Origin: Mesodorylaimus sp. YZB2_4
Lineage: Eukaryota > Nematoda > Enoplea > Dorylaimida > Dorylaimidae
Direction of reading: 5' to 3'
Assembly (NCBI GenBank): GCA_030248295.1
Contig: JASANH010001034.1
Coordinates: forward strand, 186,001-250,000
DNA: 64,000 nt
The translations under genes and the position numbers were made by a program. Within the stretch, counting starts at the first letter, position 1; the number at the start of each line of letters is the position of its first letter. This document shows, piece after piece, positions 11,401-35,995 of this stretch. Under the pieces are notes generated by a model that saw only the letters and a program-made list of their open reading frames with translations, was not told where the DNA came from and did no database searches.

Positions 11401-11987
11401 TAAAGCTGAGCTTACACTTAAGGCAGCCGTGTTCCCGCCGCGCAGGCTTACACTATGGATATAGTGCCCGACTCTTGGCTGGTCGAAGGCTTGCGCATCA
11501 AGCTACAACTTTGTGTTGCATCTACTGCATGAAAGCTCGTAGTCTTCCTGCAGGTTAATCGTAAACACGCGGGGGCTGCGTTGTGTAGAGTCGGAAACAG
11601 TCATAGAGTGACAAAGGGATAGAGCCACAACTCGTTCCTTATAGTACTGGGGAGTGATGACTATGCAGGAATGTACAGTACAGGTGCGGACAAAGTAGAC
11701 CTTCACAATGCGTTATGAAGTGCTTGACACTTTTCTGTCATTTTCTATCTTATCCCTGATCTATTCTTGCCCTCTCTCACATCAATTTTTTTGCATTATA
11801 GTCTGGACGTAACGAGGCACCTAAGACATCACTCCAAGTGCTTATTGAAGTGTTCAACAAGTCTGGCATTCGAGGATTATTTTCTGGATTGGAAGCGAAG
11901 TTGTGGCAGACTGTGCTCACTGCGGCCCTTATGTTTTTAACTTATGAGAAGTTAACCCAGTTTATATTTTGGATGCTGAGAGGATAG
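8410..11987 (+). CDS. SLC25A17: Peroxisomal membrane carrier PMP34-like (SLC25A17), 7 exons
   Basis: Exons 8410-8460, 9083-9210, 9567-9715, 10198-10341, 10412-10560, 11039-11137 and 11802-11987, all GT-AG with consistent phases, give 301 residues (human PMP34 is 307). The three mitochondrial-carrier repeats are visible with their signature helices: [24 protein letters not shown] and [11 protein letters not shown]. The degenerate second and third signatures are characteristic of PMP34 rather than other SLC25 members. Other family blocks are [27 protein letters not shown] and [21 protein letters not shown]34 exchanges CoA, FAD, NAD and adenine nucleotides across the peroxisomal membrane, from family knowledge. 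The last exon is duplicated at 28838-28987. Confidence 0.95.
9850..9905 (-). repeat. tRNA-like SINE fragment in SLC25A17 intron 3
   Basis: On the minus strand an A-box-like TAGCCCACTGG is followed after about 20 bases by the B-box GGTTCGATTCC. The spacing is about 12 bases too short for a functional tRNA, so this is a degenerate tRNA-derived repeat. Another canonical B-box (GGTTCGAATCC, plus strand) lies at about 10072-10082 without a good A-box. Confidence 0.4.
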
Positions 11988-12353
11988 TGCGCATGATAGC
12001 GTGAGCAGGGCGAGATGGTTGTCTTGGTTTAGGGTGAATCGTGTCAGTGCCATGAACTATAATTTTGGTAGTGTGGGGCCTGGCTGTACAGTGCGACTGG
12101 TTGGCTGATGCGGATGCATGCTGCCGCTGATGACCGACTGCACAGATTTCTTGATATGGGAGTAAATTTCACATGGTTTGCATTTTACTGTTGTAACTGC
12201 GCTTTTGTGCAGGTTCGGAACACTCGGGTGCTTATCCTTTGTCATGCGTTTCAGTCATACTCCTACTGTATGTGCATACGAACACCGCTAGACTAATGAA
12301 CCAAGACACACCTCTCTACGCATCATGTTAGTACGGTCAATATGCTCGATTTA
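11988..12353 (+). repeat. Duplicated 3' flank of SLC25A17, copy 1
   Basis: Downstream flank of SLC25A17 that is nearly identical to 28988-29446, including short open frames in both. It is part of a larger duplicated block that starts in the last SLC25A17 exon. The conserved short frames have no recognisable product. Confidence 0.75.
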
Positions 12354-13170
12354 CCCATAATTCATGACTCATCCTTTTTCTGTTCATCAAAATGGTGTTG
12401 TTCGTTGATACGCACGCGAGGATCAGTGCAACCATGCCTGGCAGGCGTAGGAGGGAGGTGGCCGACCGAAATCAGTGTGATAAACACTCCGACTGGAGTG
12501 GGCAAGTCTTGCGACTTTACATACGGCCGGAACATCAACCCGAGAGGTTGACGTCTCCCAGCCAGGGGATTCTCTCTGGCTCCATGGCCCCTCGGGCAGT
12601 GAGGTTACATCAGTCCTTGCTGGCTTTGTCCCCTGGATCTTGTTGATGTCCGAGCGATGGGCGGTCGTCCTCTCATCGCTTGATCCCTGTCTCGCTTGAC
12701 ATGACTTGAACTTTCGATCCGAAGACCACAGGGTGTCCAAGTAGTGCTCACCACCGCACCAAGGAGGCCATCATGTCTGATTAGTCATTTTCTTCTCACC
12801 TAATTACATCCTGTGTAATTAGCTTATGTAGAGTTGTAAGTAGCTTTTTAGTACTGTACAATATAACACTGCCCTTCTGTTCTTCTCGATGCGAGCATGA
12901 AGAGGTCACGATGGTTCGGATCACGCGCAGGGAAAGCCAAGAAATAAGCAGACACATTGGCCGTCCACCCCATTAGGCAGGGATAATGCAAAAAACGTAG
13001 CTGTCAACTGTCAACGAACCCGACAAGCCGACAAGACAGCAGAAAGACCCGACCTCAGGTCACACGCAGAAGCGACCCCTGGCAAGATTTACTACCCTGG
13101 CGTTAGTGACAACATTGATGGTTCAACGGGCAGACAGTCTCCTGCCGAGCTAACTGAGGCACAAGATAGA
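12354..13170 (+). repeat. Dispersed repeat R, copy 1
   Basis: Starts with CCATAATTCATG and contains the blocks CATCAACCCGAGAGGTTGACG, GGTCACGATGGTTCGGATCACG and GACAACATTGATGGTT. Related copies lie at 15066-15360 (partial), 28225-28837 and 29447-30260. Non-coding; the origin could be a non-autonomous transposon or simply part of the duplicated block. Confidence 0.7.
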
Positions 13171-13329
13171 AAGCAGTGGAGCATGTGCTGTTTTCGCTGT
13201 GATAGGACCAGGGCAGCAGAGCATAATAGCCTGAAGATAGTGCCAAGTATGGAGTGCAAACTGAAGTTTTATTGTGCAATCAATCAGTTTTTGTCAGAAC
13301 CAACGCACTTTTGCATTTGAAGAGCCTGG

Positions 13330-14533
13330 TTACTGGACATACACGCATTGAATTGGCGAAAAGTAACAGTTGACGAAAATTCGACTTCCGTATCTCAGTT
13401 CGACCTTATTTTTCAGGACACCTGGCTTTAATTGACTTTTGATGGCTAATAGTTTGAACCTGCCAGACGACCACTTGACCACACGTCTCTCTTTGTGGCC
13501 TAATTGATCTGATGATTTGAAAGATAATGTGGTCGGTTTCCTTAAAAAGCATTATAAAGCAAAAAGCACTGTAATTCGCAATGAAGGGCCGCCTGGGTGG
13601 TGTAGCGGTGAAAGGCGTGTGTCACGGTTTGCCTGGCTGAGGTGGAAACCGGTCCGCCCTGAGTTCAACTGGTCAGAACTTGGTGAAGTTCTCTCTGCGC
13701 CTTGCACGCCTGGCGGTGGGTGACTCACCCTTCATCCCTCCGGGGTCCATAAACGAGGAGAGGCCTTATGGGGTGGGAGGCTCTCGGATTTGAGTCCCCT
13801 CATGGGGCACGGGGTGGGTATGATCACCGACATCGCGGGGTAGCGACTAACAGGCGCCCGTGCCCGGCATGCATCCCGGCTTGACCATAGTCGATGGCAA
13901 GATAGGGTCAGCTAACAAGCCCGCGGAGAAAGGGCCAAAAATCGACCCTCGCCTGGACTGACCAGGATGGGTTTAAAAAATTGGCATAAAGGCAGGCAAA
14001 GTAAAGGAGCTTATATACCTACGTTGAGGGGACTTGAATTCCCAGCGGACTCACTGATATCTTATCAGAGCCTCTAGATCAATCAGTATGTGTCACTGCT
14101 TGGCCAATCCAGACCTGACGACCCAATTGCAGCAGTTATTTGTGCTAGATGGATGCAGGCAGCTAGCGGCTAATCGTACTGCCCACTTGACCCATCAGTA
14201 AGTAAGCGAGAGCAAGGCTCAGATGTAAGGAGGGTAGGGATACAAGGGAATGCGATTTTCTTCGCTATTGAACTATTTTTGACAAAACTTGAAAACATGC
14301 ACTGCACATGCGCCCTTGGTAGCTTTTAGCCGACCAAGCCCAGCGGTTTTACCCCTACCCTCCTTACGATGCCCGTACATGCAGTACAGTACTATATGTA
14401 GGCCCAAAAGATATATACATTAGTCTTACTGATCGTGAGAAGCGTCAACCATCGCTATCGTCGATGAGTCACCCAGCACATTGGCAGCTATGCACCAAAG
14501 TACAAAAGGGAGGAGAATACCGAACCAAGCCAT
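13330..14533 (-). CDS. Allatostatin-C-like neuropeptide precursor, copy A
   Basis: Two exons, 14430-14533 and 13330-13540, joined by GT-AG with phase 2, give 104 residues. Exon 1 encodes a signal peptide (MAWFGILLPFVLWCIAANVLG). Exon 2 begins KPTT and has a dibasic-like KERR, then VVKWSSGRFK, a variable linker, and the C-terminal peptide IFVNCYFSPIQCVYVQ after an SR. Cys-x6-Cys enclosing Y-F-S-P-I-Q matches the allatostatin-C core (C-Y-F-N-P-I-S-C), a disulfide-looped inhibitory neuropeptide family related to somatostatin. The second exon has no internal start codon, so this gene is easily missed. The gene structure is well supported by two intact paralogues; the peptide-family assignment rests on the core motif and precursor layout. 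Confidence 0.75.
13589..13975 (+). repeat. SINE-like element inside the intron of peptide gene A
   Basis: Begins GGTGTAGCGGTGAAAGGCGTGT (split A-box-like head), followed by a B-box-like GAGTTCAACTGG and a GC-rich body ending near a short A-rich stretch at 13975. GC content is clearly above its surroundings. A tRNA-derived SINE is the best explanation; boundaries are approximate. Confidence 0.45.
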
Positions 14534-14600
14534 GATGAGGTACGATCGATTTTTCAGTCGCTGCTTGGCGAAGAATATTAGACTATAAGGCAGATCTCCT

Positions 14601-14613
14601 GGCTTATATCCAT
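14601..14613 (-). promoter_or_regulatory. TATA box of peptide gene A
   Basis: The minus-strand ATGGATATAAGCC lies about 70 bases upstream of the ATG. It is identical at the corresponding place upstream of copy C (31133-31145) and slightly altered in copy B (17889-17900). Confidence 0.6.
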
Positions 14614-14820
14614 TTGGTTAGCCGTTCAAAAGCCTCTTGGCAAGCTTTCCGTCAAAGTCGGTCTTGATGTCGCTGGAGGCAACTGATATTTCGCAAAGGG
14701 CGCGCAAGGAAAAGACCATTAAAGGTTTGCATGCCGCGCCGGATCTTTGTGCTATTTGGAGCTGTCAGTGACGCCATACGCTTTTGCTTAAATCGTTGAA
14801 AGCGTTGATAATTGTGTGAT

Positions 14821-14850
14821 GATGTCAAATTTGTAATGCGTCGCATGTAA
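14821..14850 (-). promoter_or_regulatory. Conserved upstream block, peptide gene A
   Basis: ATGTCAAATTTGTAATGCGT followed by CGCAT (plus-strand orientation) lies about 290 bases upstream of the start. Matching blocks lie upstream of copies B (18069-18095) and C (31352-31378). The intervening sequence is more diverged, so selection on a regulatory element is plausible but unproven. Confidence 0.45.
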
Positions 14851-15065
14851 CGATCAGCATGCCATGCCTCTCCGAAAACGTTCTGTGCGTACTGCAGCAC
14901 AATCATCTGTTGACCCAAGCTACCACAGGTTTGTGCCATTGAAAATGCAATTCACCCTAACTCCCCGCTTTCTCGTCATCCCAGGGGCTATAGGGTTTCA
15001 AAGAGGGGCGACATGGAAGTACAAACCTTAGTGGCGATAGAAAACCCTCGATAGCTCATTGCCTG

Positions 15066-15360
15066 TTGATCCATAATTCATGATGTGCCCTTTTTACTAA
15101 AATAGGTGCTACCCGTCGTATAAAATGTGTCCCTTCACCCTCGAGTGCGCAGAAGCGTGGTAAAACATGAACATGAACCCTTTGATACGCACGCAAGGAG
15201 TAGTCCTTGCTGACTGCGTCCCATGGACCCTGTTGTTGAGCGAGATCATCCCCTTTATCACTTGATCACTGACACGATTGACTGGAATGTTCCATCTGGG
15301 CAGCACAGGGGTCCCAATACTGCGTACTACCAATAAGGGTAACTGTCACGCCAGGTTAGT
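15066..15360 (+). repeat. Dispersed repeat R, partial copy 2
   Basis: Contains CCATAATTCATGATG, the ACTAAAATAGGT block also seen at 28260, and GTAGTCCTTGCTGACTGCGT. Bases 15112-15180 also match, in reverse complement, the SINE body at about 61365-61435. Confidence 0.5.
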
Positions 15361-16925
15361 CACTTCCCTCACCAGGTCAATCGACAAGGGCTAAGACAGT
15401 TAAGAAACCACTGTCTTTCTGATCAGTCAGACTCTGACGAACACGAAAATCCATAATTAAGAAGTCATAAGCATCATCGCTCCAGTGCTTCAAAAAGGTT
15501 GTAGCCTGAGTACCTTCCGCATAAGCTGCAGCAGTGAAATTTGTACTTGACACTGCCACACATCCCACAAGAATCCCTACAAAAAATCACGCTGACTCGT
15601 AAATACCAGAATCGTGTGGCTTGGCTTAGGCGTGTGCCAGTCACGCCAGCCGGGTAAGTCGTTTCGTGTTTTTTTTCCCCCCCCCCCCCCCCCCCCGAGT
15701 GCGCAGACCCACATTTTGATTGCATCTGCCTTTCGAATGAGTTTTTCTCAGAGAGCAAATTAAATGTATCCTCTAGGCATAGAGAAACATGCGTTACGTG
15801 TTTGCAGAATTGTTGTATTGCTGACTAAAAGTCTAGTGACAGCAAGTTCAACGAGGCTAAAATTTCTCCAACTTAATTTTTACCTGATCAGATGATTAGT
15901 ATATATGAATATGCATTGAGGAAGTATGATATGCCGATCGTGCGAGAGTGCAAGCGAGGCATGATAAATTTGACATTATCCATCTATAGTCGGTTCATTT
16001 TCACGCGAACGGTTAAAGCATTAGGTCTGATAACTCCGAGTGACATAAAAGTAGACCTTTAGCGACCATCCTCTGAGCCTTAGCGAATGTTACTGCCTCC
16101 ACAAACCAATAACATATTCGACAAAACCTAGTGAGCTCATCGACTGGTGTCGAACACAGTACTTACGTAATTTGGGCTCGCTTACAGTGCAGTACTAATC
16201 ATTCTCTGTCCCATTTGATTATTATCTCGGGGTTTTGACAGCAATCAGCTATGTAAGCAGCTTCTTGACTAAAGTCGGACCAACTGGACCGTGGTACATG
16301 GTTTAGACGAACTTCTGTTGCGCTATTCTGTTGAAGACAAACGTAGAGGGGTACGCTGATTCGGATCTGACACAGAGCAAGCCTAGAGCAATCAGAAAAT
16401 GGCTATCCGCTCTTATTTGATGCAGGGCATCGTGTTCAACCTCAATGCAGGGCATCGTGATCACGATCGTGTTCAAGCTTAAACTACAGCCTTCAGTCGA
16501 GGGAAGTTGACGAGACTGAGACTTAGAGGAGCTGAGGTATACTGTAGGCAGCAAAGGCAAACCTATTATCGTTGGAGACAGGTGGAAAAAGTTAGGCGCA
16601 CTCGGGTCAGGTCCCTGGCTAGTATTTTAGAAGGCACAAGGAAGGACGGTCTCGTTACATGCCAAGGAACACGTGGTCGAAGTTGGCGTTTCCTCCGTAA
16701 TGGAACTTAAATTGTCTATGCTGAGGAACAAATGCAAAATGGTCTAGAAAGAGGCTTCAAAATTTTTTGAATCAGGATATATGGCGGAACCTAAAGCTGA
16801 TCCAGCGGAGCGTGACTTGAACCCGCGCGAAGGATCTGCGCTGACTGTCCCTGCAAGAACCCCGCCAGCAGTACTGCGAAATGACGCATGTAGATTAGAA
16901 AAATATGATCATTCGCAGAAAAGGG
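15361..16925. other. Intergenic sequence between peptide genes A and B
   Basis: No gene seen. A poly-C run at about 15678-15697 creates a spurious minus-strand frame rich in Gly. A short direct duplication (GCAGGGCATCGTG) lies at about 16422-16458. Confidence 0.5.
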
Positions 16926-17813
16926 CTACCGCACATACACGCACTGAATAGGCGAGAAAAAACAATTAATGAAAGTTCGGCTTTTTGACCTCAGTATGAT
17001 TTTGTTTTTCGGCTTGTTTGGCTTGCCTTTCGCTTTGATGTTCGTCCACACCTTGAACCTCCCAGTCGACCATTTTGCCACACGTTTTTCTTCTTGCTTC
17101 AGATGGGACGTTAAAGCTGAAATTGGTTTCCTAAACAGAAATAAGGAGCGCTCGATATCTTGTAAATCTGGTGACATTATTATTTCCCAATGAGCCTGAC
17201 GATGAGGCTGGGAAATTCTTTGACGAATCAATAGTTACTGTATATGGGGACTGAACTTTGAGGCACATTTCGGCATGGAGGTTCTGGGAAAGAACTCATA
17301 ATTAAAATCAGTCCAAACACCCTTTTAGTAAAATGAGTCCATCAATATCCTTGGTTTTCCTCCTTCTTCACTTCCTGCTTTGCCGGAGACGACATGGCAG
17401 GGTGTCTCGAGTGTCCACTGCACACACCCCATACTGTCTCACTAGTTTGGGTAAGCTATTCGAGGGGGGGGGGAGGTTACACCAAAAGGGGCCTGGAAAG
17501 AAAGCTGAACGATATATTTGCACCTTATTATATGCGCATCAGGTCTCTGGAAACGAACAAATCAATGGTCTGGCCAATCAGTGCTTCAGGCCTTCTGATC
17601 TGAGAACTCAGCTGGCACAAGAGGGCAGATGCCTTTTCTCATCGCAGCTTATCACATGGGCACGCATAGTATGTATTGTCGGCTCAGGTAACATTTTATT
17701 TCCGATCAGCCTTACTGAGGAGATTGAACCACAGTAGCCGTCAGCGTATCACCCAGCATCGATGACAGTACCAGCCAAACTACAAAAGGGAAACAAATGC
17801 TGATCCAAGCCAT
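16926..17813 (-). CDS. Allatostatin-C-like neuropeptide precursor, copy B
   Basis: Exons 17716-17813 and 16926-17130, GT-AG, phase 2, give 100 residues. The signal peptide is MAWISICFPFVVWLVLSSMLG. Exon 2 starts KPIS, then has EEKR, VAKWSTGRFK, a Lys-rich linker, SR, and TFINCFFSPIQCVYVR at the C-terminus. The Cys-x6-Cys core is CFFSPIQC. Identities with copies A and C concentrate in the signal peptide, the KWS-x-GRFK block and the terminal peptide, while the linker varies, as expected for a prohormone. Intron length is 585 bases. It is the most diverged of the three at the upstream region, suggesting an older duplicate. Confidence 0.75.
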
Positions 17814-17888
17814 GATGTGGCACAACGGTTGTTTCACTCGCCGCTTGCAGTAGGATACTGAAAACACCAGTTTAGACTCCTAGACTTA

Positions 17889-17900
17889 CTGTATATCCAT
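17889..17900 (-). promoter_or_regulatory. TATA-like box of peptide gene B
   Basis: The minus-strand ATGGATATACAG lies about 80 bases upstream of the ATG and aligns with the ATGGATATAAGCC of copies A and C. Confidence 0.5.
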
Positions 17901-18068
17901 TCTATTCATGTAAAGCCTGCTTGGCAAGCGTTTTGTCAATAATACTATCGACTGACATTTCGTGAAGGTCACCAGCACAAGGTCGCTAAAAGTTTGCTTT
18001 TATGTCGATTGGACCAATCAACAACATCGTGACCTTCCGCGTTAGAAGGAAGCAATAATTCATGAGGT

Positions 18069-18095
18069 AATGTCAAATGTGTCATGCTTCGCATT
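18069..18095 (-). promoter_or_regulatory. Conserved upstream block, peptide gene B
   Basis: AATGTCAAATGTGTCATGCT then TCGCAT, about 260 bases upstream of the start, aligns with the blocks of copies A and C. Confidence 0.45.
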
Positions 18096-18129
18096 GCTCA
18101 CAATCGGCGGAGCATATGTCCCAAGCAGT

Positions 18130-20768
18130 ACAATATATACTGTAGTCATCTATCGACACCCACATTCCACTGGATCAAATTGGATCCTGTATGATTGGAT
18201 TAGATTGAACTCAAAATTGGCTTAAAACATTTTAGCGGTGTACTAAAATGACTGCGTTTCATGTTTTTATAGATCACAAAACGCTCACAAATGCTCTCTC
18301 GAGGGGGGGAAGAGACACATTACACACATAACCCAAAGCTTGATGTGGTGGCTTAGGTGCGCTTGCTGTTGCAGCGCGCGGCCGCTGCCATCCAGACAAT
18401 TATCGCTTTCTACATAATGAGCCTAGACGCCGAAACCCGTATCAGGGATCCCAGGGAGGGTTGACGCAGGTAATGCCGGGGAGCTTACGCTCCAGATACA
18501 ACTCAAAGCAGCAGTTTCTGGCTTCTCGTTGCCAAAGACCAATGAACACGACACTTCTGCCTGTCGACCCCCCACTCTCCTGGCTCAAGCGCACGGGCCA
18601 CACTGTAAATTCACCACCCCGAGATCAGCATTGCAATTCGAACGAAATATTCGAGTGCTTAAAACAGGTTTCATGCGTGATCCTGCATGGGTGCCCATAC
18701 TGCACTGTACCTGCTGGTCCCTGAAAGCATTTCTCTCAACAAAATATCTGCAAGAACTTCCATGAATATCTTCTAGCAATCATCTTCTTAAGCTATTAAC
18801 TTCAATGACGATGTTATAATCAGTACACCCACGCCCAAGTGAAAGACCGAAGTCTCTGTGACAAAAAACTCCGACAGGACGAAGCTGATAATGAGTCTCA
18901 AGACTACACCTGCTGCGGGAGCATCAAACAGCCAGATGAGAGATTGATCTCACAGGAATGAGTGCTGGTCACAGAGTTGTCATGGCTGCATGTTAACCCT
19001 AAAAGCGCGAGTAGTTGCACGTGAGCAATGAATAGCCAGCAGGATCCTTCTTGATCTTCTTTTGTGCTGCATGTCCTATCTCCACAGTTTTGCTTCATGT
19101 TTTTTTCTAACTCCTGTAATAGGCTGGATAGCTCTACATTGAAGATAATACCGTGGGGCGAGGATGGCCTCAAAACCCCTCCACGCAGGCATCCTAGTCG
19201 GCAGGAGACAGCAACTGGAAGTGACGTCTCCATCCTCGTCTGCCTCGCCTGGAGGTGCGTATTGAGTGGCCAACGAAGGAAATTGATTCGCTTAAGCGGC
19301 GGCTAGCTAAGGCATCCAAATACAGGCTTATCCACAGGCCTATTTCATTCCTTTTTTAGCCCAGATTTTTCTCTACCTATCCACTGTACCAATGCGGAGT
19401 TCTGCCCGCTTTCGAGCGCATGAAATATTGCATGTTGCTTCTTCTACGAAATGTGTTCAGTGGTGGGCGGGCACCGACATGCAAGGCACTGGCACCGTTA
19501 GCCAACTGACTCCTCAAATACATTTTCCTGAATTTCCTCCCATTTTTAATTCCAGTTTGCGATGAAAGAGAATTTTTAGTCCGCGCTTCCGTGTCCAAAA
19601 ACGACAGAGTAGTAACACCATCATCATCATCATGGTTTATTCTTGGCCAAACACTGACAGTGCACTTTAAGATCAGAGGCATGCAGGGCTACGGAACGTC
19701 AAAAAAGAGAGAACACACCATATGGAGACGTTACTGATTTGAGTTTCCCGCCGTTAAAGTATATTTTCACTCGTCCCACAGGTGTTGTAAACATGCATAA
19801 CAGCTTCCACCACGAACAAGTAGTGATGCTACCAACATATTTTGAATTTCCCGCCACTTTTCTGGCAGTGTATGCGGTGTAAATTATGGAGATTGCATAT
19901 CTTCTGCTCCTTCATCTTTGTGTGCCTATTCCCACCCATGGCTATATAGCCATGTTCCCACCACCCTACAACGATCCGGGGCAACACCCTGTCAAAACAG
20001 TTGCAAAACAGGGGAGCAACAATGCTAGTTTGTCGCTTGAACATGTAGCTGGATCCCGCTCAAACAAAGCTCATAATCGACGTCGTGCTCTATTGGACGT
20101 AAACGTAAAAAAGTTATCCAACTTTGCGCCCATAAAAAAAACCAGGAGAGATTTTGAAAAGATTTTTGGCACCCACTGTCCTCGACGTCTCTATTGACAG
20201 TACTAGATATATTTCGTTGGCTCGTAAATCTTATGTGCGTGCATTTGCATAGCAAACAAAACAGAATGAGTCTTTATAATTACTGAACTCTTTTTTTAGT
20301 TTCTTCCATAAAAACTGTTTCTTGGGGAGGTTAGTTCGGCAGTCTTCAATAATCTTAATCTGGGATATCGGATTGGGTACAGCAAACCTATACTATCTGT
20401 TTTCTTTGGGAAGGTAAGGTACACGCAGCACTGAGAGGCACTCGAAGGGCGTGCATATTCTCAAGGAGAACAGGATGTATACACTACGCAGTTGCAAATA
20501 CAGATTTATGAATCTAATGTTACAATATTGCATGAGAGCATCAGGTTGATGAACGAGGTTTATTTTACTTTTGATTTTAAAAATACCCTCTTCAAACAGA
20601 TTGTAACCATTTGATTGCAAGGCGGGGTGTTCTGGTACAGCCACCGTACTGTAAGTGAATAATGCATATTGCACGTATAAAGTTCCAAAAAAAGTTTATA
20701 GCCTTCCAAAAAAACTTGGTTTCCCTAGGATTCTAGACTGTTCTGCTTGTAACCTTGTTAGTCTGGGC
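18130..20768. other. Repeat-rich intergenic sequence
   Basis: No convincing gene. Bases 19145-19330 are a minus-oriented copy of a repeat (here called G; GAGGCTGAAACCCGTCGGG and GGTTGCC-x-GACTGGCCGCC blocks) seen again at 41625-41900 and 60598-60815. A 103-codon plus frame at 19886-20197 has no recognisable features. A CATCATCATCAT microsatellite lies at 19618-19632. Confidence 0.4.
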
Positions 20769-21448
20769 TTATGCATAAGAGCAACGCGACAGGTCGATCA
20801 TCGATTCGATGATCGACTTGATCATCGATGAACTCCAATCGGCCATTGCATTGTACGCCAGGCATCCCCAGACCATGACATTACCACCACCGAATTGGAC
20901 TGTCACAAGGGTACAGCTTACCTTGTACGCTTCACCTGCCTTCCGCCAAGCTTTGGTTGGACAATCTGGACACAAGATTGAATTCGAATCGACCACAAGA
21001 TCTTTCTCCAATACTCAAAGGGCTTGTTCCCGTGTTCCAGGACGAAACGGAGGCGAGCTTTTATGTGCCGGTCGGAAAGGAATGGTTTTTTGCGGGCAGT
21101 GCGTGATCAGAATTCCCTCATGCAGACGTCGACAAATAGTTTTGGGCGAAATCGTGATTTTCTTGGATTGTTCGAGCTCCCTGGCCACTTGGACCGCCGA
21201 TATTGGCCGATCCGCCTTGACTTTGTTCACTATTTAGCGGCCGATTCTGGGCGTCGTCGTGCGTTTCCGACCACGTCCAGGCAAATCTTCGATTGCCTGG
21301 AGATTTTCGACTTTTTGATGAGCGAAAAAATGGTGGAGCGCTTTGAACCCGTAGCCTTTGCGATTTGTCCGTACAATTGACCTTGGTTCTTGCGATCGAC
21401 CACAAACGACCATTGTCCAATAGTCAAATGAGATTTGCGAGTCGCCAT
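20769..21448 (-). pseudogene. Tc1/mariner transposase relic
   Basis: Minus-strand fragments in several frames reproduce a Tc1-type transposase in order: an N-terminal helix-turn-helix (MATRKSHLTIGQWSFVVDRK and GSKRSTIFSLIKKSK), a GRKR linker, the second DNA-binding region (RPISAVQVARELEQSKKITISPKT), then the catalytic region with KAGEAYKVSCTLVTVQFGGG and VMVWGCLAY. Frames are broken at least twice and the first catalytic Asp region is degraded, so it is inactive. A 25-bp palindrome overlaps the C-terminal end at 20789-20813. Confidence 0.75.
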
Positions 21449-21859
21449 TTCGATGGTAGAAAAAAGGAGACACTGATATCCTATGCCTGAGGCACCTCTA
21501 TTCCCTTAGACCAGGAACCAAACCAAGACATGACTGCCCTTGGACAACAATGAAAAACCAGAAAGTCTGTAGCAGTGCGATTATTTTTGTCCCGGAAATA
21601 ATTGTGGCCACTCGTATTTTCTCTTGTCTCAATGATTAATGGTAAAAGATAACTGGATTCTGATTGATGGGCTATGGTAAATAAACAATTCTCTATCCAG
21701 CCATATCCTACTTATTGCCCTAAAAAAGGCGCAGATACCCAACTTTTTGCAGGTGCCCGATTATTTTTGTTTCCCATTTTTATTATCATGGCAGCGCCCG
21801 TCTCAAGGCTTTTCCACACTGCTCATCGCGGATCACTCTATTTTACAGGCTGATAATGT

Positions 21860-22520
21860 AAAGAAGAGGCATGCTGCTCACAAAAGACTGCTTGAGAGAG
21901 GCACGAAATTTTTTCACGCCAGGACGAAAATACAGTATCAGGGGCATGGACATTTCAGGACGCGAAAGAAAACTTGGCAATTACGCAGATGACACCAACT
22001 CGGTGACTGGATGTTCGAAATCGAGAGAACGAATTTTCTATGCCTACGATGTGGATAAACGAGCATCAGGTGCAACACTGAAACTGAAGACAACACAAAA
22101 GCCAAAAATTTTGCTTCTTTGGATCATCAACAGGCGGGAATTAGAAAAAGAGCTGATGCATTTTGTGGTTAATAAACTGAAAATATCTAAATAGATTTTG
22201 GATTAGCACGGATAGGCATGGAAATAGCCGAAAACTGGGCGTGTGTCACAGGTTACAGGGACTTGAGCGAAAGATTCCGCCCTCAGAAATTTCATATTTC
22301 GGCAGAATATCTGCGGCTAACATCTACTATTTATCAAAGCTGTGGTACTTGGCCTCAATGATTGGGTTAGAAGCTGACTGCCAAAAGTTCATCAAAAGGA
22401 AAATTAACAGTTACCTCTGGCACCCAGCAAAAGTCAATATGATGAATAAACTAGCTTTAAAGAGGAACAAGGAACAGGGAGTCCTGGGCTACTCCGATGT
22501 AGGAATGACTGCCTAGGCTT
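21860..22520 (+). pseudogene. Non-LTR retrotransposon (LINE) reverse-transcriptase fragment
   Basis: One frame (21871-22194) contains NYADDTNSV, the catalytic YADD of a reverse-transcriptase palm. A second frame (22241-22516) continues with KLWYLASMIGLEADCQKFIK and KEQGVLGYSDV, matching the thumb and connection region of LINE reverse transcriptases. A stop and frameshift between them and the absence of an endonuclease show a dead 5'-truncated copy. Confidence 0.65.
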
Positions 22521-22639
22521 TCAGAATAATGCTGCTTATTCAGAGCAAAAGTTTGTGTGTTACGATACTTATGATTATTTTGTTCACAAAGGCAGGTCTA
22601 CTTGCGACCAAATCAACTTGCGCATTTCAGCTGTATAAG

Positions 22640-22860
22640 GATACCAGAAAAGAAGAAAAAGCTGCTAAAAAAAAGCCCCTAAAACAGCACACTGGGGGGG
22701 GAGAAAAAGAGAAAACCAAAAAATATGAGTGTTGTTAGTCGCGAGAGAGCGAAAAAGACCCCCCTCCCGCGCGGCGGGGGGGGGGGGGGGAAGCTAACAG
22801 AGGGGGGGGGAGAAGAACACAACCCACCCCGGGCGGGGGGGAAAAGCCCCCCCCCACAGT
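22640..22860. other. Low-complexity poly-G/poly-C/A stretch
   Basis: Alternating homopolymers of G, C and A (several runs of 8-14) give a composition unlike any neighbour. It lies between the LINE fragment and the Tc5-like insertion. An assembly or base-calling artefact is at least as likely as a real low-complexity tract. Confidence 0.5.
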
Positions 22861-22899
22861 ATCGATCACTAAGACCCCGATTCCTCAACAAACCCCTCA

Positions 22900-23100
22900 C
22901 GAGGGAGGTCTCCTTGGTGCCCGACGCGTATGGTGGGGAGACTATACGGATTTTGTAGTCCTCTTATAGGCTCAACAGAACATAACATTCATGCGCGCGA
23001 ACGCGCGCTAGCGGCCGCTGTACAAACGAGTAAAGTTTACACTGATTTTGAAATTCCCGCCATCGTTTGCTGTTACATCGCGCTGTCTGCTGTGCGCGGG
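22900..23100 (+). repeat. Left terminal inverted repeat of Tc5-like element
   Basis: 201 bp, matching the reverse complement of 26142-26342 at 196 positions by hand alignment. It contains an internal palindrome-like GCGCGCGAACGCGCGC. Confidence 0.92.
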
Positions 23101-23292
23101 GGCGCGGACGACACGCCTTTTCACGTTATCATCACCCCTTTTTAATGGATTTAAAAATTTGATTTTGATTGATCGGGTTGAAAATCTCGGCGATTTCAAC
23201 TGGAGAAGAGAAAAACTTCATTTGAACAGGTAAAATCTTAAAGTTTCTGTTGCGGTTTTTGTCTTCATTTTGTCTCGCTCAGAAGTTTTACA

Positions 23293-24972
23293 ATGAGTGT
23301 TCCTAATATTCTTGCTTGTCTTGCTGAACTCGCAGATGTGCAGGCAATAATCGCACACGGCAGTAGTTTTTCAGAGAACGAAAAACTAATTGCGTCACAT
23401 CTCTGGCATTGTATGCAAGACATGGTGAAAAAAATGCAAAATGGAGAGTCTTTGCACAAATATACCTCACGATCAGTGCAATCCGACACAAATAATAGCA
23501 TGGGTGATGCAGGGTGTACTCACGAGTACGATATAAGCATGAACGAGGTGGAATCTGATCTGAAATCTGAAGAATCAGATTTAGATTCTAATGAATCAGA
23601 TTCAGATTCGGATGACCAAGTTGACTACCTTAAATCAGGTAAGCAAGCGATTGGAATTAAAGATTGGACTGTAGATGAAATAAGAAAGGTTGTTGAATTC
23701 GCTGATAGTCATCCGAATTACTCGTTTAAGTCCTTAAAGCAAAAATTTCGCAGACTTCAGGATCATAAGATGCTTTCTCGCATGCGCATGTACTTAAAGC
23801 AAAATGGATCACGACTTCAAAAGCAGCGAGGTATTGATGCAGCTGTGTTGCAACAGTTCAAAGATGCTCGCAATAATTTGCATTCAGTACATGATTCTGA
23901 TCTACGCCGGTGGGGTAAGATTGCAGCAAGTGAAGTAGGATGTAATAAGTTCAAAGGGAGCAAAAGGTGGCTTTCTGCATTTAAACAGCAGCATGGTGTA
24001 ACGTCTCGTAGAGTCACGCTGATCCAAACGTCCAAGCAGGTGACTGACAGCGCACGTATTGAGCAATCTGCACAGGAATTCCGAGCACAGGTGCAAGAAA
24101 AGGCTCTAAATTTTCCGCATGATTTGATTTTTAACACTGATCAGTCAGGCTTCAATTATGAATTTCATTCAACAAGAACTTTGTCCAGGAAAGGTGAGAA
24201 AGTAACTGCTGTAGGAGTGAGGTCAAAGGACAAGGGTACGCATTCGTATACCATTCAGCCGCTTATCGATTACAACGGTAGGATTCGAGGTAAATTGTAT
24301 GTTTGTTTGTGGGAGCCTAAAGGACGAATGGGGGAGCAAGTTGAGAAAAGTTACTTCAGAGCACCAAATCTTGAAGTAACGTGTAGCAAGTCGAGTAAAC
24401 TATCTGGCAGTTTATTTACGCGATACGTGGACTTGGTCTTTTTTCCAGTGGTAGATGATGACTGCTTGCTTTTGCTCGATTCTCTACCACTGCATCACAA
24501 CAATGAGTGTTTCGAAATTTTTGACCATAGTGGGAAGACCTGCGCCCGGCTAAAAATACCAGCTGGAACGACGGGTACTACCCAGCCTCTCGACGTGGGC
24601 ATTTTCAGGCAATGGAAAGGTGTTGTAAGGCGATGTTACGATTTTGTGAGTATGAATAGCATAATTGATCCAAAAACTGGTAAACAATTGAACATGACGA
24701 GCAGGGACAGTGTGTTAAAACTGCAGTCCCTGGTTCATAACCAGTTTACGTCGGATGCATTCGTTCCTATGGGGCACTATGCATGGTACAAGGCAGGTCT
24801 GCGCCCAGATGCGCCTGGTCCTTTCAAAAACGCTGCTGAGATTTTGTTTCCCAAAAACGAAACCAGTTGCTCTGTCAGAGGATGTCTGCATCCTTTCTTT
24901 ATCAGATGTGCGTTTTGTAACTCCAATTTATGCTTTCAAGATTTTTTCATCGGATATCACACTCATTTTTGA
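23293..24972 (+). CDS. Tc5-type DDE transposase
   Basis: A single 559-codon frame. An acidic segment (residues ~90-115) precedes the DNA-binding region. A CENP-B/Tc5-type helix-turn-helix is seen around residues 200-245 (FKGSKRWLSAFKQQHGV). The DDE_1-type catalytic core has Asp283 (FNTDQSG), Asp396 (LLLLDSLP) and Asp434 (QPLDVGIF), spacing D-112-D-37-D. The C-terminus has Cys526, 531, 539, 542, 547 and His556, 558, matching the cysteine-rich C-terminal domain described for Tc5 transposases. It catalyses cut-and-paste excision and integration at TNA sites, from family knowledge. No stop or frameshift interrupts it, and all three catalytic residues are present. The start at 23293 is the first Met after the left repeat. 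Confidence 0.9.
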   Translation: MSVPNILACLAELADVQAIIAHGSSFSENEKLIASHLWHCMQDMVKKMQNGESLHKYTSRSVQSDTNNSMGDAGCTHEYDISMNEVESDLKSEESDLDSNESDSDSDDQVDYLKSGKQAIGIKDWTVDEIRKVVEFADSHPNYSFKSLKQKFRRLQDHKMLSRMRMYLKQNGSRLQKQRGIDAAVLQQFKDARNNLHSVHDSDLRRWGKIAASEVGCNKFKGSKRWLSAFKQQHGVTSRRVTLIQTSKQVTDSARIEQSAQEFRAQVQEKALNFPHDLIFNTDQSGFNYEFHSTRTLSRKGEKVTAVGVRSKDKGTHSYTIQPLIDYNGRIRGKLYVCLWEPKGRMGEQVEKSYFRAPNLEVTCSKSSKLSGSLFTRYVDLVFFPVVDDDCLLLLDSLPLHHNNECFEIFDHSGKTCARLKIPAGTTGTTQPLDVGIFRQWKGVVRRCYDFVSMNSIIDPKTGKQLNMTSRDSVLKLQSLVHNQFTSDAFVPMGHYAWYKAGLRPDAPGPFKNAAEILFPKNETSCSVRGCLHPFFIRCAFCNSNLCFQDFFIGYHTHF

Positions 24973-25189
24973 CGGAGAGAAATAATTTTCGATTTATCGT
25001 GCATTAAAAGTAAGTATCGGTAAGAATTTATTTCATATTTGCTTTCAAATTATTCCCGGCTGTTTGATTTATTGAGACACTGCTACACGGTCATTTAGCT
25101 TTTCAGTTACTCAGATTTCAGCCGTTTGTTTTTAGATGGCTTTCGTATTCCGCATATTCGCTGTTTCTGTATGCATGCTTGCCGTTTTG

Positions 25190-25378
25190 CCGATGATGGG
25201 ATCTGGACGGCCCCAGTGCGGGAACCCGTAGCCTGTTGACCATCTAGCATTGCGGCACTGTCCTGTCTTTCGTGTTCCACGTTGTTCTGCATGCCCCTTG
25301 TTCTTGTCGTTGCCGATGATGGGATCTGGATGGCCCCACTGCGGGGACCCATAGCCAGTTGACCATCTAGCATCAATT
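25190..25378. repeat. Direct repeat pair inside the Tc5-like element
   Basis: Two ~65-bp copies (about 25191-25252 and 25308-25373) share GCCGATGATGGGATCTGGA and GTTGACCATCTAGCAT. They lie in the non-coding part 3' of the transposase. An antisense frame covers both, but all five differences within the compared stretch change amino acids, so no coding constraint is evident. Confidence 0.6.
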
Positions 25379-26141
25379 CCAATTCCGTTTGCATGTTGTT
25401 CCGATTCCTTTTTGTTTGCTTCACGATTTCACCCAACCTCCACGTGGTGTGAAGCGGGAACTGGTACCATGCATGCGGTACCTGCTGATGGGGTGAAAAT
25501 CAGGTAAGGATTCTTTCTTTTACAGAAAATAGGACGAGGAAGAGGTGGCGATCAGTCACCTCAGCGATCATTGCCTGGACAAGGTAACATTTTTACGTGA
25601 GCGTCGTCCCACATCAAAGGAATAATCGATGGATTCATGATAAACTGGATTTACCACGATATTTTCACTAGCTTTGTAGGGCTTTGTATAATATACCTGT
25701 CTCGTGAAATAGTTTTTTCCTTGGCTTGATCGAGCAAAAAAACGAAAAAGATAGCTGTCACAAAAAATTCGAGTGACAAGTATTTTAGCTCACAAGTGTA
25801 ACTGATCAACTCTGCAAAGTGATATGAACAATGATGCTTCGCTCAATATATGACAATCTTTCGGCTGGCCGCGCAACTATCAATACCATAATTAACCTGC
25901 CATCGATTTCCCATATAATTACACGTCGAATCCTAACTACTGAATTTCTAGCTCGATAAATTCGCTGCCACTATCGAGAGTTTGTAATCTTTGATAATAC
26001 TAAACTGTGCTACCTTTTCGGAAGGCAAAATTGTTATGTAATTGAAACGCAAAACTGCTTCTTTCAACAAAAGAGAAGCATATATTGTCTGATTCGGGCG
26101 GGGTAGTAATCGTAAAATAATGACTTGACTAAAGTCGCACT

Positions 26142-26342
26142 CCCGCGCACAGCAGACAGCGCGATGTCACAGCGAACGATGGCGGGAATTTCAAAATCAG
26201 TGTAAACTTTACTCGTTTGTACAGCGGGCGCTAGCGCGCGTTCGCGCGCATGAATGTTATGTTTTGTTGAGCCTATAAGAGGACTACAAAATCCGTATAG
26301 TCTCCCCACCATACGCATCGGGCACCAAGGAGACCTCCCTCG
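26142..26342 (-). repeat. Right terminal inverted repeat of Tc5-like element
   Basis: Reverse complement of 22900-23100 with five differences; ends CCTCCCTCG before the TCA duplication. Confidence 0.92.
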
Positions 26343-26870
26343 TCAGGCGTGTTTGCCGCACCTCCCAAGGGTGCCTGCAACTGCTCTGTGCTATGGTTTA
26401 CTAGCCTGGCAGCTGGTCGAATGCACCCGGTCCTAAGATGCCTGTGCTGACGAACAGCTCCACTGTCGATGGCGTAGTAAGGACTCAGTCAGCACCAGAG
26501 GATCCTTTACGAAGCACAACAATGCACGACCATGTCTCAACAATCCTAGATCTTACCCATAGCGAAATCCGCAAACAAACCAAGTACCTGCCCTGGAGTC
26601 AACTCCTATACTTTTCCAGTATGAACCGAAGGAAACGACGACCGCAGAGGCCCTTTGAGAGTATGCTAATCGAAGTCCCTGGCGGGCGCCTGACCTGCCC
26701 CAGAGTTCTGCTAATGGGGTGGACAACACAAGGGGTGGCTACCCACAAATTCAGAACAAAACAGATTGAACCGAATCGAGTGAAAACGAGCTAGGAAGAG
26801 CCCCGATCCCTCCCAGCGGCCTGCTCTTATACTGCCCTGGCTCCTCCTTACCGAGCCAAAACCAAAACGC
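26343..26870 (-). repeat. Dispersed repeat H, copy 1 (right part, split by the transposon)
   Basis: Reverse complement matches 58370-58900 through blocks such as CAGTTGCAGGCACCCTTGGG, CTTCGTAAAGGATC and CCAGGGCAGTA. The remainder of the same copy lies left of the transposon at 22861-22899. A 118-codon plus frame (26438-26794) is not conserved as such in the other copy. Origin unknown. Confidence 0.65.
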
Positions 26871-26944
26871 ATTTATACCACTTTGTCGATAAAAAGGCAT
26901 CGAAGACAACCAGGGGCCATGCAACAATACTGGAGTGGTAGTGC

Positions 26945-27030
26945 AATAGGCGTGTTTGGCCGGTGGGGAAGGTTGTGTATTTGGTTGCCTTTACTGGCTG
27001 CCTTATACACGGAGCAGCGCCAAACATGCC
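26945..27030 (+). repeat. Repeat G fragment
   Basis: GGCGTGTTTGGCC then GGTTGCCTTTACTGGCTGCC and TTATACACGGAGCA match the start of the copy at 41625. Confidence 0.5.
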
Positions 27031-27299
27031 TATTGCATCCCTCCCTCCGTTAGGAAAGCGATGTCAACATCGCTTCCGCCCAGAGAGAGAGGAGAAACAG
27101 GTTCAAACGCGTGGCAGCGTCTGGCACCCGGAAGCTCTAGGCATCGCATAGAACACCCTGCGACCTCACGGTCTGGCCCATACTGGCAGAGCCATCGCGA
27201 AGATGGTTAACTGGACAGGGGTTCTCGACGCGAGCACACCCTACACACGGCACATAATAACACGCCCTACTCGTGACGCCAAATGCAACAGGCTGAACG

Positions 27300-27420
27300 G
27301 ATCTGCTCAAAATTTTGGATCGGATCATCCGATCCGAATTTTTGGATGGTGATTCTTCGGATCAGGTCGGATCGGATATCTGATTCGAACGGATGGTATC
27401 CGATCCGATCCGGCTGTGAA
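27300..27420. repeat. GGATCGGAT-rich cluster
   Basis: A 120-bp stretch built of variants of GGATCGGAT and its complement ATCCGATCC, giving many overlapping inverted repeats. Its function is unknown; a degenerate tandem array is likely. Confidence 0.5.
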
Positions 27421-27816
27421 ATGTATTGTATAGGCCCTGCAAGAGTTACCAACCAAGAAAAATCTTTAAGATGGGCATACAAGGAGGTAATGTCAATGCT
27501 CTCTGAGATGGGTGGTCGTTGTCATCGCTTGGTCACACGATTGACATGACTTGAACTTTCGGCCACAGGGATCCAACTAATGCATAGTACCACTTCGCCG
27601 ATTAGTCACTTCTTTCTTCGTCAATAGACAGTATTGCGCACGTACATGCTGTGAGATAGGTGTTATATTTCAGCTACTTTTCGAGTATGAGCATAGTATA
27701 TAGCCAACTGCTGCCTTATTCGTGTCGTGTGTGAAACAGCATATAGGGGGGGGGGGGGAATAAGATGGCTCAAGCCCTAAGAACTGGCCTCACTCTAATA
27801 CAGATAAATGCGCCGT

Positions 27817-27864
27817 ATGCACGCTCAACACTCTGGAAACGTTTTCAGAGTGTTGACCGTGCAT
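27817..27864. repeat. 48-bp near-perfect palindrome
   Basis: The 24-bp arms 27817-27840 and 27841-27864 are adjacent with no spacer and pair at 22 of 24 positions (ATGCACG-x-TCAACACTCTG). It could extrude as a cruciform or form a transcript hairpin. It lies in otherwise featureless DNA within a short 61-codon frame. Confidence 0.75.
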
Positions 27865-28224
27865 GGTTGCACAATTTTTACGCAGGTTGCTTGCTTGCTG
27901 ACCTTGCCTTTACTGCTGATCTTGTGAGCTGCACATACTGTATTTTTTGATCAACGAGAATCGTCCTTTGTGCGTCTGGTTGGGTGGTCGAAGCAGACAC
28001 CACCCGGTGCCTGCTGATAACAGGTAAAATTCCGTTGCTTTCGAATCAAAGTAAGCAGCATCACTGAAAAGCGCACGCTAACACTCCAATACACCTTTAC
28101 CACAGCTACCCATCAACTACAGAAGTTTATTCCAATAGATGGTCAAAGCACAGTTGTCTAGCTCCTGATAGCATCACCTTGTTATGGCAACAAAAATTCT
28201 TGATGGCGTGTGGGTTGTCAAAAT

Positions 28225-28837
28225 GCTGCATATCCATGATTCATGGTGTTTTCTTTTTTACTAAAATAGGTTTAATGGGTTGATCATGCGTGCGTGAGGA
28301 TTAGTCCTTGCTGACAGCGTCCCATGGCTTGTTGATGTCCGAGCGGCGGGTGATCGTCGTCATCGGTTGATCACTCTCGCGCTTGACATGAATTGAATTT
28401 TAGATCCGAAGGCCGAAGGGTCCAACTGCACCAAGGGTGGCCATCAGGCTAGTCAATTTCTTATCTATCCGTACATGCTGTGTACTAAACCGTGTGTCTA
28501 AGGTAGTTTTTTAATGCCGTACCATAGAATACTGCCGCTTTGTTATTTTCAAAGCGAGCATAAAGAGGTCACGATGGTTCGGATCACGCGCAGCGGAAGC
28601 CAAGAAACAAGCAGACACAATGGCTGATCGCCCCATTAGGCAGGGATAATGCAAACGTAGCTGTCAACTTTCAACGATCCCGACAAGTCGACAAGACAGC
28701 AGAAAGACCCGACCTTAGGTCAGGCTGCACGCAGAAGCGACCCCTGGGAAGATTTACTCCCCTGGCGCTAGTGACAACATTGATGGTTGAACGGGCAGAC
28801 AGTGTCCTGCCAAGCTAACTGAGGCACTCCTTAACTG
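28225..28837 (+). repeat. Dispersed repeat R, copy 3
   Basis: Starts at CCATGATTCATGG and ends CCAAGCTAACTGAGGCAC, immediately before the SLC25A17 exon copy. Its presence on both sides of that exon copy (also 29447-30260) implies a tandem duplication step. Confidence 0.7.
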
Positions 28838-28987
28838 AGTGCTTGTTGAAGTGTTCAACAAGTCTGGCATTCGAGGATTATTTTCTGGATTGGAAGCAAA
28901 GTTGTGGCAGACTGTGCTCACTGCGGCCCTTATGTTTTTAACTTATGAGAAGTTAACTGAGTTTATATTTTGTATGCTGAGAGGATA
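28838..28987 (+). pseudogene. Duplicated last exon of SLC25A17
   Basis: Nearly identical to 11838-11987, keeping the reading frame through [18 protein letters not shown] and the same stop. Only the 3' ~50 codons are present, joined upstream to repeat R with no carrier exons, so it cannot make a carrier. Few substitutions imply recent origin. Confidence 0.9.
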
Positions 28988-29446
28988 GTGCGCATGATAG
29001 CGTGAGCAGGGCGAGATGGTTGTCTTGGTTTAGGGGTGAATCGTGTCAGTGCCATGAACTATTATTTTGGTAGTGTGGGGCCTGGCTGTACAGTGCGACT
29101 GGTTGGCTGATGCGGATGCATGCTGCCGCTGATGACCGACTGCATAGATTTCTTGACATGGGAGTAAATTTCACATGGTTTGCATTTTACTGTTGTAACT
29201 GCGCTTTTGTGCAGGTTTGGAACACTCGGGTGCTTATCCCTTGTCATGCGTTTCACTCATACTCGTACTGTATGTGCATACAAACACCGCTAGACCAATG
29301 AGCCAAGACACACCTCTCTACGCATCATGTTAGTATGGTCAATATGCTCTATGTGGACTTGAGTGATGCCTGTTCGAGGTGGGCAAGACTTGCTGTCTAA
29401 TCGAACAACTCGATGACTCGTAGGCACTGAACGAATGTTATTAACC
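28988..29446 (+). repeat. Duplicated 3' flank of SLC25A17, copy 2
   Basis: Matches 11988-12353, with an extra stretch of about 100 bases near 29350-29445 not seen in copy 1. Confidence 0.7.
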
Positions 29447-30260
29447 CATAATTCATGGATCATCCTTTTTCCGTTCATCTAAATGGCGCTGCCAGTTGAT
29501 GCGTACGCGAGGATCAGTGCAACCATGCCTGGCAGGCGTAGGAGAGAATGTGACCGACCGAAATCAGTGGGACAAAAACTTCGACTGGAGTAGGCAAGTC
29601 TTGCGACTTTACAAACCGCTGGAACATCAACCCGAGAGGTTGACGTCTCCCAGCCAGGGGAGATCACTAATCGTCTCTGGATCCATGGCCCCTCGGGCAG
29701 TGACATCAGTCATTGCTGACTTTGTTCCCCGGGGTCTTGTTGATGTCCGAGCGATGGGCGGTCGTCCTGTCATCGCTTGATCCCTGTCTCGCTTGACATG
29801 ACTTGAACTTTCTATCCAAAGACCACAGGGTGTCCAACTAGTGCTCACCACCGCACCAAGGGGGCCATCATGTCAGGTTAGTCATTTTCTTCTCACCTAA
29901 TTACATCCTGTGTAATTAGCTTATGTAGTGTTGTAAGTAGGTTTTTAGTACTGTACAATATAACACTGCCCTTCTGTTCTTCTCGATGCGAGCATAAAGA
30001 GGTCACGATGGTTCGGATCACGCGCAGGGGAAGCCAAGAAATAAGCAGACACATCGGCTGTCCACCCCATTAGGCAGGGATAATGCAAACGTAGCTGTCA
30101 ACTGTCAACGAACCCGACAAGTCGACAAGACAGCAGGAAGACCCGACCTCAGGTCACACGCAGAAGCGACCCCTGGCAAGATTTACTACCCTGGCGCTAG
30201 TGACAACATTGATGGTTCAACGGGCAGACAGTCTCCTGCCGAGCTAACTGAGCCACAAGA
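29447..30260 (+). repeat. Dispersed repeat R, copy 4
   Basis: Matches 12354-13170 closely throughout, including GGTCACGATGGTTCGGATCA, and is followed by peptide gene C exactly as copy 1 is followed by peptide gene A. Confidence 0.75.
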
Positions 30261-30411
30261 TCGAAAGCAGTGGAGCATAAGCTGTTTTCGCTAGGGCAGC
30301 AGAGCATGGTATCGGGGTGACAGTATGTACTACATATAACTTATGGAAACTGGAAAACATGTCATTAAGGTCAAACTATATTTTCACACACCCGTAATTT
30401 GTAGAGCGTGG

Positions 30412-31067
30412 TTACCGCACATACACGCATTGAACAGGTGAAAAGTAACAGTTGATGAAAGATCGACTTTCAGATCTCGATAAAATCTTGTTCTTTGAGT
30501 CGCCTTGCCTCTCTTGCGTTTTGATGAAGAACACCTTGAACCTGCCACTCGACCACTTGGCCACGCGTTTCTCTCCCTGCTCCAGCTCGGGTGATAAGTT
30601 CGAAACCATACTTGGTTTTCTAAGAAAATAGGGAAACCTCGAAATAGTTGTCTGTAATTAGGAAATGCTTAACTACAACAGGAAAAAGCACTGAGTCCTG
30701 TCGAGGGATACAGTATTTATACTGTTCTCTTATGCTGTTTGACAGATCTCTACGAACTTCGAACATACTATCGATCGTTTGAGTCAATGTCTGGACTGTG
30801 ATCGTACTGTAGGACCTGGCATCTCAACATTTTTATGATAATCAGCCCCTAAACACAGCTGTTGGTCCAACTCAAATGCACAGGCCCGATCTAAAAACGG
30901 ATCAGGCTTGCTTATTGGCATCATCCATTATGCAAGCCCTGAAAACTTATCCACATCAGCCCCTCTTACTGAGAAGTCTCAACGGCAGCCGTCGTCGGTG
31001 TATCACCCAACACATTAGCAACTAATAACAAAAGTACAAAAGGGAAACACATGCCGAAGCGAGTCAT
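30412..31067 (-). CDS. Allatostatin-C-like neuropeptide precursor, copy C
   Basis: Exons 30970-31067 and 30412-30619, GT-AG, phase 2, give 101 residues. The signal peptide is MTRFGMCFPFVLLLLVANVLG. Exon 2 starts KPSM and carries GEKR, VAKWSSGRFK, a linker with ERQGDSKNK, and after ESR the C-terminal peptide SFINCYFSPVQCVYVR. The loop CYFSPVQC differs from the classical allatostatin-C loop CYFNPISC at only a few positions. Intron 350 bases. Upstream and downstream flanks match those of copy A, so C and A derive from one segmental duplication. The reading frame is intact in spite of duplication, supporting function. Confidence 0.78.
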
Positions 31068-35590: not shown

Positions 35591-35995
35591 GCGCGGTGAT
35601 GATAAAATTCTTGCATTTGCACCCAGGATGGTGTCTTCAGACCAGCATCACACGATCATCAACAACCGGCGTCGCACGTTCTTGCGCCGGCTTCGGCACT
35701 GTGTGCACACATGCGGCATGCAGCTCGTCCTCCCATCTTCCACTGCCTACTAAACTGGTGGCCTAGGAACGGATGATAAACGAGAAACTGTTGCTGAATA
35801 AACAGGGTATGATGGATAAGAAGGCTAGGCACCTCAACTTGCGCTTGGCGTACTGGTACCTACCTACTATACGGTGAGAGTTAGGTGTTTGGACTAACAC
35901 CCTCAGTTGCTGTTGCAGTGTCGGACCCGACTAGCGACTAACGGGAAGAATCTTTCAAGTTGTGTTTGGACTACATATTGTCTCCGCGAAAGGCC

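Follow-up and report, generated by a model that had tools for sequence, protein, structure and literature searches.

A hugely expanded family of probable somatostatin/allatostatin-C-type secreted peptides in a nematode genome

What do three small neighbouring genes encode when each ends in nearly the same short cysteine loop, and how far does such a gene set extend beyond its locus? These questions are raised by genes A, B and C, located on the minus strand of a 64,000-nucleotide (nt) stretch of contig JASANH010001034.1 (positions 186,001 to 250,000 of the forward strand); this stretch is referred to as the window, and its own coordinates are used throughout. A first-pass annotation of the window described the three as locally expanded, secreted looped neuropeptides of the allatostatin-C (AstC)/somatostatin type. 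The present analysis suggests, with a probability of about 0.7, that they belong to a hugely expanded family of somatostatin/AstC-type secreted peptides, which numbers over 100 loci in a single nematode genome.

The exon-intron models of genes A, B and C were built by hand from the DNA sequence alone (Table 1). Re-reading of the sequence confirmed the architecture first proposed for them: two exons, a signal peptide on the first, phase-2 junctions, unbroken frames and, at the end of the second exon, C[YF]FSP[IV]QCVYV[RQ]. The donor is TCA/GTAAG in all three genes and the phase-2 splice rebuilds a Gln codon each time. The spliced frames of 315 nt (A), 303 nt (B) and 306 nt (C) contain no internal stop and give precursors of 104, 100 and 101 residues, respectively, each with a signal peptide (judged from hydropathy only) and each with the predicted peptide as its C-terminal end. 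The absence of an internal Met from exon 2, also claimed at first pass, applies to genes A and B; exon 2 of gene C does contain one (KPSMVS...). Pairwise identity of the precursors is 50/99 (A-B), 56/101 (A-C) and 56/99 (B-C), with whole-precursor ratios of nonsynonymous to synonymous change (dN/dS) of 0.34, 0.44 and 0.32 at dS values of 1.12, 0.72 and 0.86, respectively.

Relatives of these genes were identified throughout the assembly (145,146,385 bases in 1067 contigs). Searches with protein queries gave overlapping sets of 51 places at an expectation value (E) of at most 0.001, 95 at E≤10, and 87 and 31 at E≤1, these counts being lower bounds. Listing by C-x6-C plus at least four of six family residues gave 117 cores, of which one, on contig C61 at 162820, was dropped as a chance match. 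The remaining 116 places are spread over 65 contigs and, together with loci L126 and L127, bring the number of places with a related C-terminal peptide to at least 118. The strict core C[YF]F[ST]P[IV]QC is present at 98 of the 116, where base composition predicts 0.023 over all six reading frames of the genome. Both Cys were fixed by the screen, whereas Phe and Pro were rewarded and not demanded; Gln is conserved at 115 places, Phe at 112, Pro at 111 and the Asn before the first Cys at 104. Ten pairs of places are 95.9-100% alike over 245 nt, and the eight of these that involve contigs shorter than 27 kb may in part be alleles, so the size of the family is put here at over 100 separate genes or remnants of genes. 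The genome itself is very probably that of a nematode, as 133 Col_cuticle_N matches, all above cut-off, were found in the assembly. A tardigrade origin was considered and set aside: neither an SAHS1 query nor Lipocalin_7 gave a match, the SAHS1 negative being weak because that search had no positive control and the Lipocalin_7 search one in which no control gave a signal. Arthropod RR cuticle proteins and diapausin, a Pristionchus marker, were likewise absent from the matches, again in searches where no control gave a signal.

For 41 of 103 places, the closest relative judged by exon-2 product is found on the same contig; 200 shuffles gave 2.1 such cases on average and 8 at most (13 of the 116 places, on ten short contigs, were left out of this test). 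The first-pass description of a local expansion understates a family that is genome-wide, with 118 places. A tree was built from the 110 exon-2 products that have 25 or more codons ahead of the core. It contains a clade of 28 (support 0.985), with VYINCFFTPIQCIYLGG types among its listed members; genes A, B and C fall in a looser clade of 41 (support 0.832).

Selection was assessed over 92 related, non-independent pairs, which were pooled after saturated pairs had been left out. For the eleven-residue core, the proportion of nonsynonymous differences (pN) was 0.041 and that of synonymous differences (pS) 0.539 (dN/dS 0.044); for the propeptide pN was 0.260 and pS 0.429 (dN/dS 0.50). The loop is under strong purifying selection while the propeptide drifts: with pS high and pN low in the core, the DNA is well diverged and the peptide has been kept. 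As synonymous changes in the core far exceed replacements, and as 98 strict cores stand against about 0.02 expected, chance is excluded as an explanation of the family.

A hydrophobic leader exon with a donor and an acceptor was sought automatically at the 96 of 116 loci that have at least 700 nt upstream. Models were obtained for 71 of them, with phase 2 in 65, phase 0 in three and phase 1 in three, while reverse-complementing the upstream DNA as a control gave models at nine (phase 2 in seven, phase 1 in two) and none at 87. One of the phase-1 models is that of gene A, for which the scan chose another acceptor; the phase-2 hand model is preferred for this gene and the automatic one was kept in the scan counts.

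The precursor would consist of a signal peptide on exon 1, a fast-drifting propeptide following the phase-2 intron and a single C-terminal peptide, released by cleavage after a basic residue directly before [VTSI][FY]IN. Arg or Lys occupies position -5 at 68 of the 116 places. The tail after the second Cys has at most six residues at 86 places and is longer at 30; among the 86 short tails, the final residue is Gly in 37 and Arg or Lys in 27. A disulfide would join the two Cys into a six-residue loop, and a terminal Arg or Lys would be removed or a terminal Gly converted to an amide. Processing by the usual convertase, carboxypeptidase and amidating enzymes would yield looped peptides of the form [VTSI][FY]INC[YF]F[ST]P[IV]QC[VL]YV, free or amidated. 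Once released, they would bind a conserved somatostatin/AstC-type G-protein-coupled receptor, and judging from the sequences such a receptor is their likely site of action. The near invariance of the loop amid drift of the rest suggests that the copies probably share one or a few target receptors; they would differ mainly in the place, time and amount of their production.

The C. elegans peptide NLP-99 (T05A8.3; GDGYGWNDCEFSPLSCLL, disulfide C9-C16) has been described as the somatostatin/AstC orthologue and as the ligand of the Gi/o-coupled receptor NPR-16, with the signal sequence encoded on exon 1 and the peptide on exon 2 (PMC13082328). The present family, likewise from a nematode, has the same distribution of signal and peptide over two exons and a C-x6-C loop with FSP, but differs from NLP-99 in having Gln ahead of the second Cys and FIN ahead of the first, a VYV-type tail and more than 100 places. 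The first-pass view that an SPxQ core with a VYV tail is unusual is thus partly right: FSP is also found in NLP-99, while the Gln and the tail do differ. Locus L125 (G000:C139:104716-106663) contains three NLP-99-like units within 2 kb (YWNKCQYSPLTC, QYWSKCQHSPLTC and EYWSKCRHLSLTC), which are nearer to NLP-99 than the main family is and form a second, smaller AstC-type cluster apart from it.

The FxP found in the loop of the family is reported to be shared by arthropod AstC and several C. elegans peptides (PMC8851493), and is found in echinoderm SS1 too; the other C. elegans AstC-type peptides, set beside the family by description only, possibly hold a counterpart of its core. In AstC peptides of protostomes, six residues separate the two Cys (PMC7536072). 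This spacing is found in all three window genes and at the 116 places, where the screen demands it, and the disulfide is predicted. The AstC genes of C. elegans and Drosophila are described as having two introns, one of phase 0 in the N-terminal part and one of phase 2 in the C-terminal part (PMC7536072); a phase-2 intron before the peptide is present in the three window genes by hand model and in most of the automatically modelled loci. The original assignment to secreted looped peptides of the AstC/somatostatin type is supported by the Cys-x6-Cys loop with FxP, its C-terminal place, the signal peptide and the phase-2 intron before the peptide.

Arthropod AstC (RFRQCYFNPISCF) has Phe right after the second Cys, at the C terminus, and the insect core is FNPIS. 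The core common to this PISCF type and the present family is C-Y-F-x-P-I-x-C, the family having Ser for Asn, Gln for Ser and usually [VL]YV for the final Phe. Members that look nearest to arthropod AstC include L009 (KSFRSCYFSPIQCFLN), L084 (NFRNCYFSPIQC), L095 and L121, sequences such as FRSCYFSPIQCF and FRNCYFSPIQC being among them. Vertebrate somatostatin and echinoderm SS2 likewise possess a disulfide loop at the precursor C terminus, but their FWK/IWK motif (PMC8851493) is absent from the present core. Cone-snail consomatins, secreted somatostatin mimics in venom (PMC12962067), were likened to the family by description of the peptides.

A search of the PDB by peptide sequence returned no family relative, and none of the 358 pattern matches of a viral sequence scan was a confirmed one. 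The sole confirmed locus among 129 prokaryote pattern matches, L132, lies in a long bacterial frame that is adenylate-cyclase-like by eye and was taken as chance. Titles and abstract openings of the literature on AstC in nematodes and tardigrades revealed no such expansion, a survey in which subscription papers were mostly outside the scope and long result lists were covered partly. The core strings CYFSPVQCVYV, YFSPVQC, YFSPIQC, FFSPVQC and FFSPIQC were found in no paper of the searched literature and, for the shorter strings SPIQC, SPVQC and TPIQC, no paper on nematode or AstC peptides was matched by title.

On the receptor side, a somatostatin-receptor-type TM7 query retrieved 38 matches in the genome at E≤0.01, the top match reaching 1.8e-9 at 75% identity and the next two 3.8e-6 at 57%. 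The best solved relatives of the last exon of the top match (locus L128) are somatostatin receptor 2 chains (1.3e-10), followed closely by galanin, chemokine and opioid receptors; it is a candidate somatostatin-receptor (SSTR)-like exon. Among the matches to this single query, one of the 38 having been compared with solved structures, nothing pointed to receptors having multiplied along with the ligands.

Several observations weigh against placing the family with somatostatin/AstC. A single strong SSTR-like TM7 exon, from that one query, is at odds with the ligand expansion. No exon 1 was modelled at 25 of the 96 loci scanned, some of which have a short exon-2 frame, and the reverse-complement control also leans to phase 2, though it yielded few models. 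The N-terminal phase-0 intron, a conserved trait of somatostatin/AstC genes according to PMC7536072, is absent from the models, in which a single predicted exon runs from the ATG to the phase-2 junction. Phe follows the second Cys at 4 of the 116 places (L009, L101, L110 and L120), each time with further residues behind it; being so rare and never terminal, it does not allow the family to be filed as PISCF type. The arthropod AstC query retrieved one place at E=0.105 and the NLP-99 query one at E=0.26, and no Pfam match above cut-off was obtained for six family proteins and no NCBIfam match for two. Orthology would rest on a short core, and convergence on short loops is possible.

Own signalling is taken as the default reason for more than 100 copies. 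A bold alternative, which we consider unlikely, is that a somatostatin/AstC mimic is sent out by the worm in many copies to act on host or prey receptors, as cone snails do with consomatins. The very high copy number without visible receptor expansion would fit a high-output external signal, although that lack of expansion comes from the one TM7 query, and peptide mimics have been reported in venoms and in plant-parasitic nematodes (PMC12962067). The loop, however, carries FSP as in nematode NLP-99 and not the insect FNPIS, and the core is nearly invariant. Mimics in an arms race tend to vary in their mature part. Only tentatively can it be proposed that one neurohormone has become a hundred-gene set of near-identical loops, every one behind a leader and propeptide of its own, which may either be exported onto another animal's somatostatin/AstC receptors or serve within the worm as a gene-by-gene code of dosage or cell identity read by one or very few receptors.

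Large multicopy families of secreted Cys-loop peptides are typical of defence, and the products could be cyclic peptides with an antimicrobial or defensive role whose likeness to AstC arose by convergence. We regard this as quite improbable: the mature core is mostly hydrophobic rather than cationic and nearly invariant (dN/dS 0.04), and the C-x6-C spacing, FxP, C-terminal place and phase-2 intron are common to AstC genes. That most copies are functionless relics carried by mobile or duplicated DNA is disfavoured for the family as a whole and would be very surprising. Signs of decay do occur: locus L104 (G000:C1:2367183-2369545), outside the 118, has lost the C-x6-C spacing, its first Cys and core Gln having been replaced, and has a stop upstream; the exon-2 frames of L054, L082, L083, L096 and L097 are short; and genes A and C lie next to duplicated DNA. 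Against this stand the large excess of synonymous changes over replacements in the core across the 92 pairs, the signal-peptide exon models obtained at 71 of 96 loci, and the small share of short exon-2 frames: 9 of the 117 listed reach fewer than 45 codons ahead of the core.

Peptides of the somatostatin/AstC type are inhibitory hormones of ancient origin. Crustaceans are reported commonly to express three AstC-type peptides (PMC11959706), and two somatostatin/AstC-type peptides are described in a starfish and several in C. elegans (PMC8851493). A family of more than 100 places, its loop hardly changing while the surroundings drift, offers a natural test of why hormone genes multiply, be it for dosage, tissue-specific release or export, and a large natural collection of loop and tail variants for receptor studies. 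Small genes whose exon 2 sometimes lacks a Met could escape annotation, and similar expansions may therefore be overlooked in other nematodes.

Table 1. Exons, introns and predicted peptides of genes A, B and C in window coordinates
Feature	Position	Strand	Basis
Gene A exon 1, signal peptide beginning MAWFGILLPFVLWCIAANVLGD, donor TCA/GTAAGA, phase 2	14430..14533	-	hand model
Gene A intron, 889 nt, 3' end TTTTTAAG	13541..14429	-	hand model, phase 2
Gene A exon 2 including stop: propeptide and C-terminal peptide	13330..13540	-	hand model
Gene A predicted peptide IFVNCYFSPIQCVYVQ, preceded by Arg	13333..13380	-	putative cleavage
Gene B exon 1, signal peptide beginning MAWISICFPFVVWLVLSSMLGD	17716..17813	-	hand model and automatic scan
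Gene B intron, 585 nt, phase 2	17131..17715	-	hand model and automatic scan
Gene B exon 2 including stop	16926..17130	-	hand model and automatic scan
Gene B predicted peptide TFINCFFSPIQCVYVR, preceded by Arg	16929..16976	-	putative cleavage
Gene C exon 1, signal peptide beginning MTRFGMCFPFVLLLLVANVLGD	30970..31067	-	hand model; start five codons later in automatic scan
Gene C intron, 350 nt, phase 2	30620..30969	-	hand model and automatic scan
Gene C exon 2 including stop	30412..30619	-	hand model and automatic scan
Gene C predicted peptide SFINCYFSPVQCVYVR, preceded by Arg	30415..30462	-	putative cleavage

The duplicated block downstream of genes A and C lies at 11837-13198 and 28838-30292, its pieces being 88-97% alike, and a related piece of 229 nt is found at 28494-28722. 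The corresponding ends of the two genes (13315-13492 and 30397-30574) are about 75% alike, so the block seems much younger than the duplication that gave rise to A and C. Between genes B and C, at 22892-26350, lies a DNA transposon of about 3.5 kb with 215-nt inverted ends at 96% identity and an open Tc5-type transposase frame (23242-24972).

Elsewhere in the window, a 642-codon frame on the minus strand (53301-55229) matches the amiloride-sensitive DEG/ENaC (ASC) channel family and is resembled by eye by a plus-strand frame at 63068-64000, which has no Pfam match. Some channels of the DEG/ENaC class are gated by peptides. A Cys-rich frame (44408-44974) has an EB module match just above cut-off, and a FLYWCH match falls just under its own; the Tc5, DEG/ENaC (ASC), EB and sub-cut-off FLYWCH matches are compatible with a nematode genome. 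At 2-1543 there is a long open frame that is rich in Ser/Thr, mucin-like and free of Pfam matches. A single-frame methyltransferase gene was identified by Pfam at 35942-36820 and is arsenite-methyltransferase-like by eye; a 151-nt piece of this region is repeated 2 kb downstream (38360-38510) at 99% identity.

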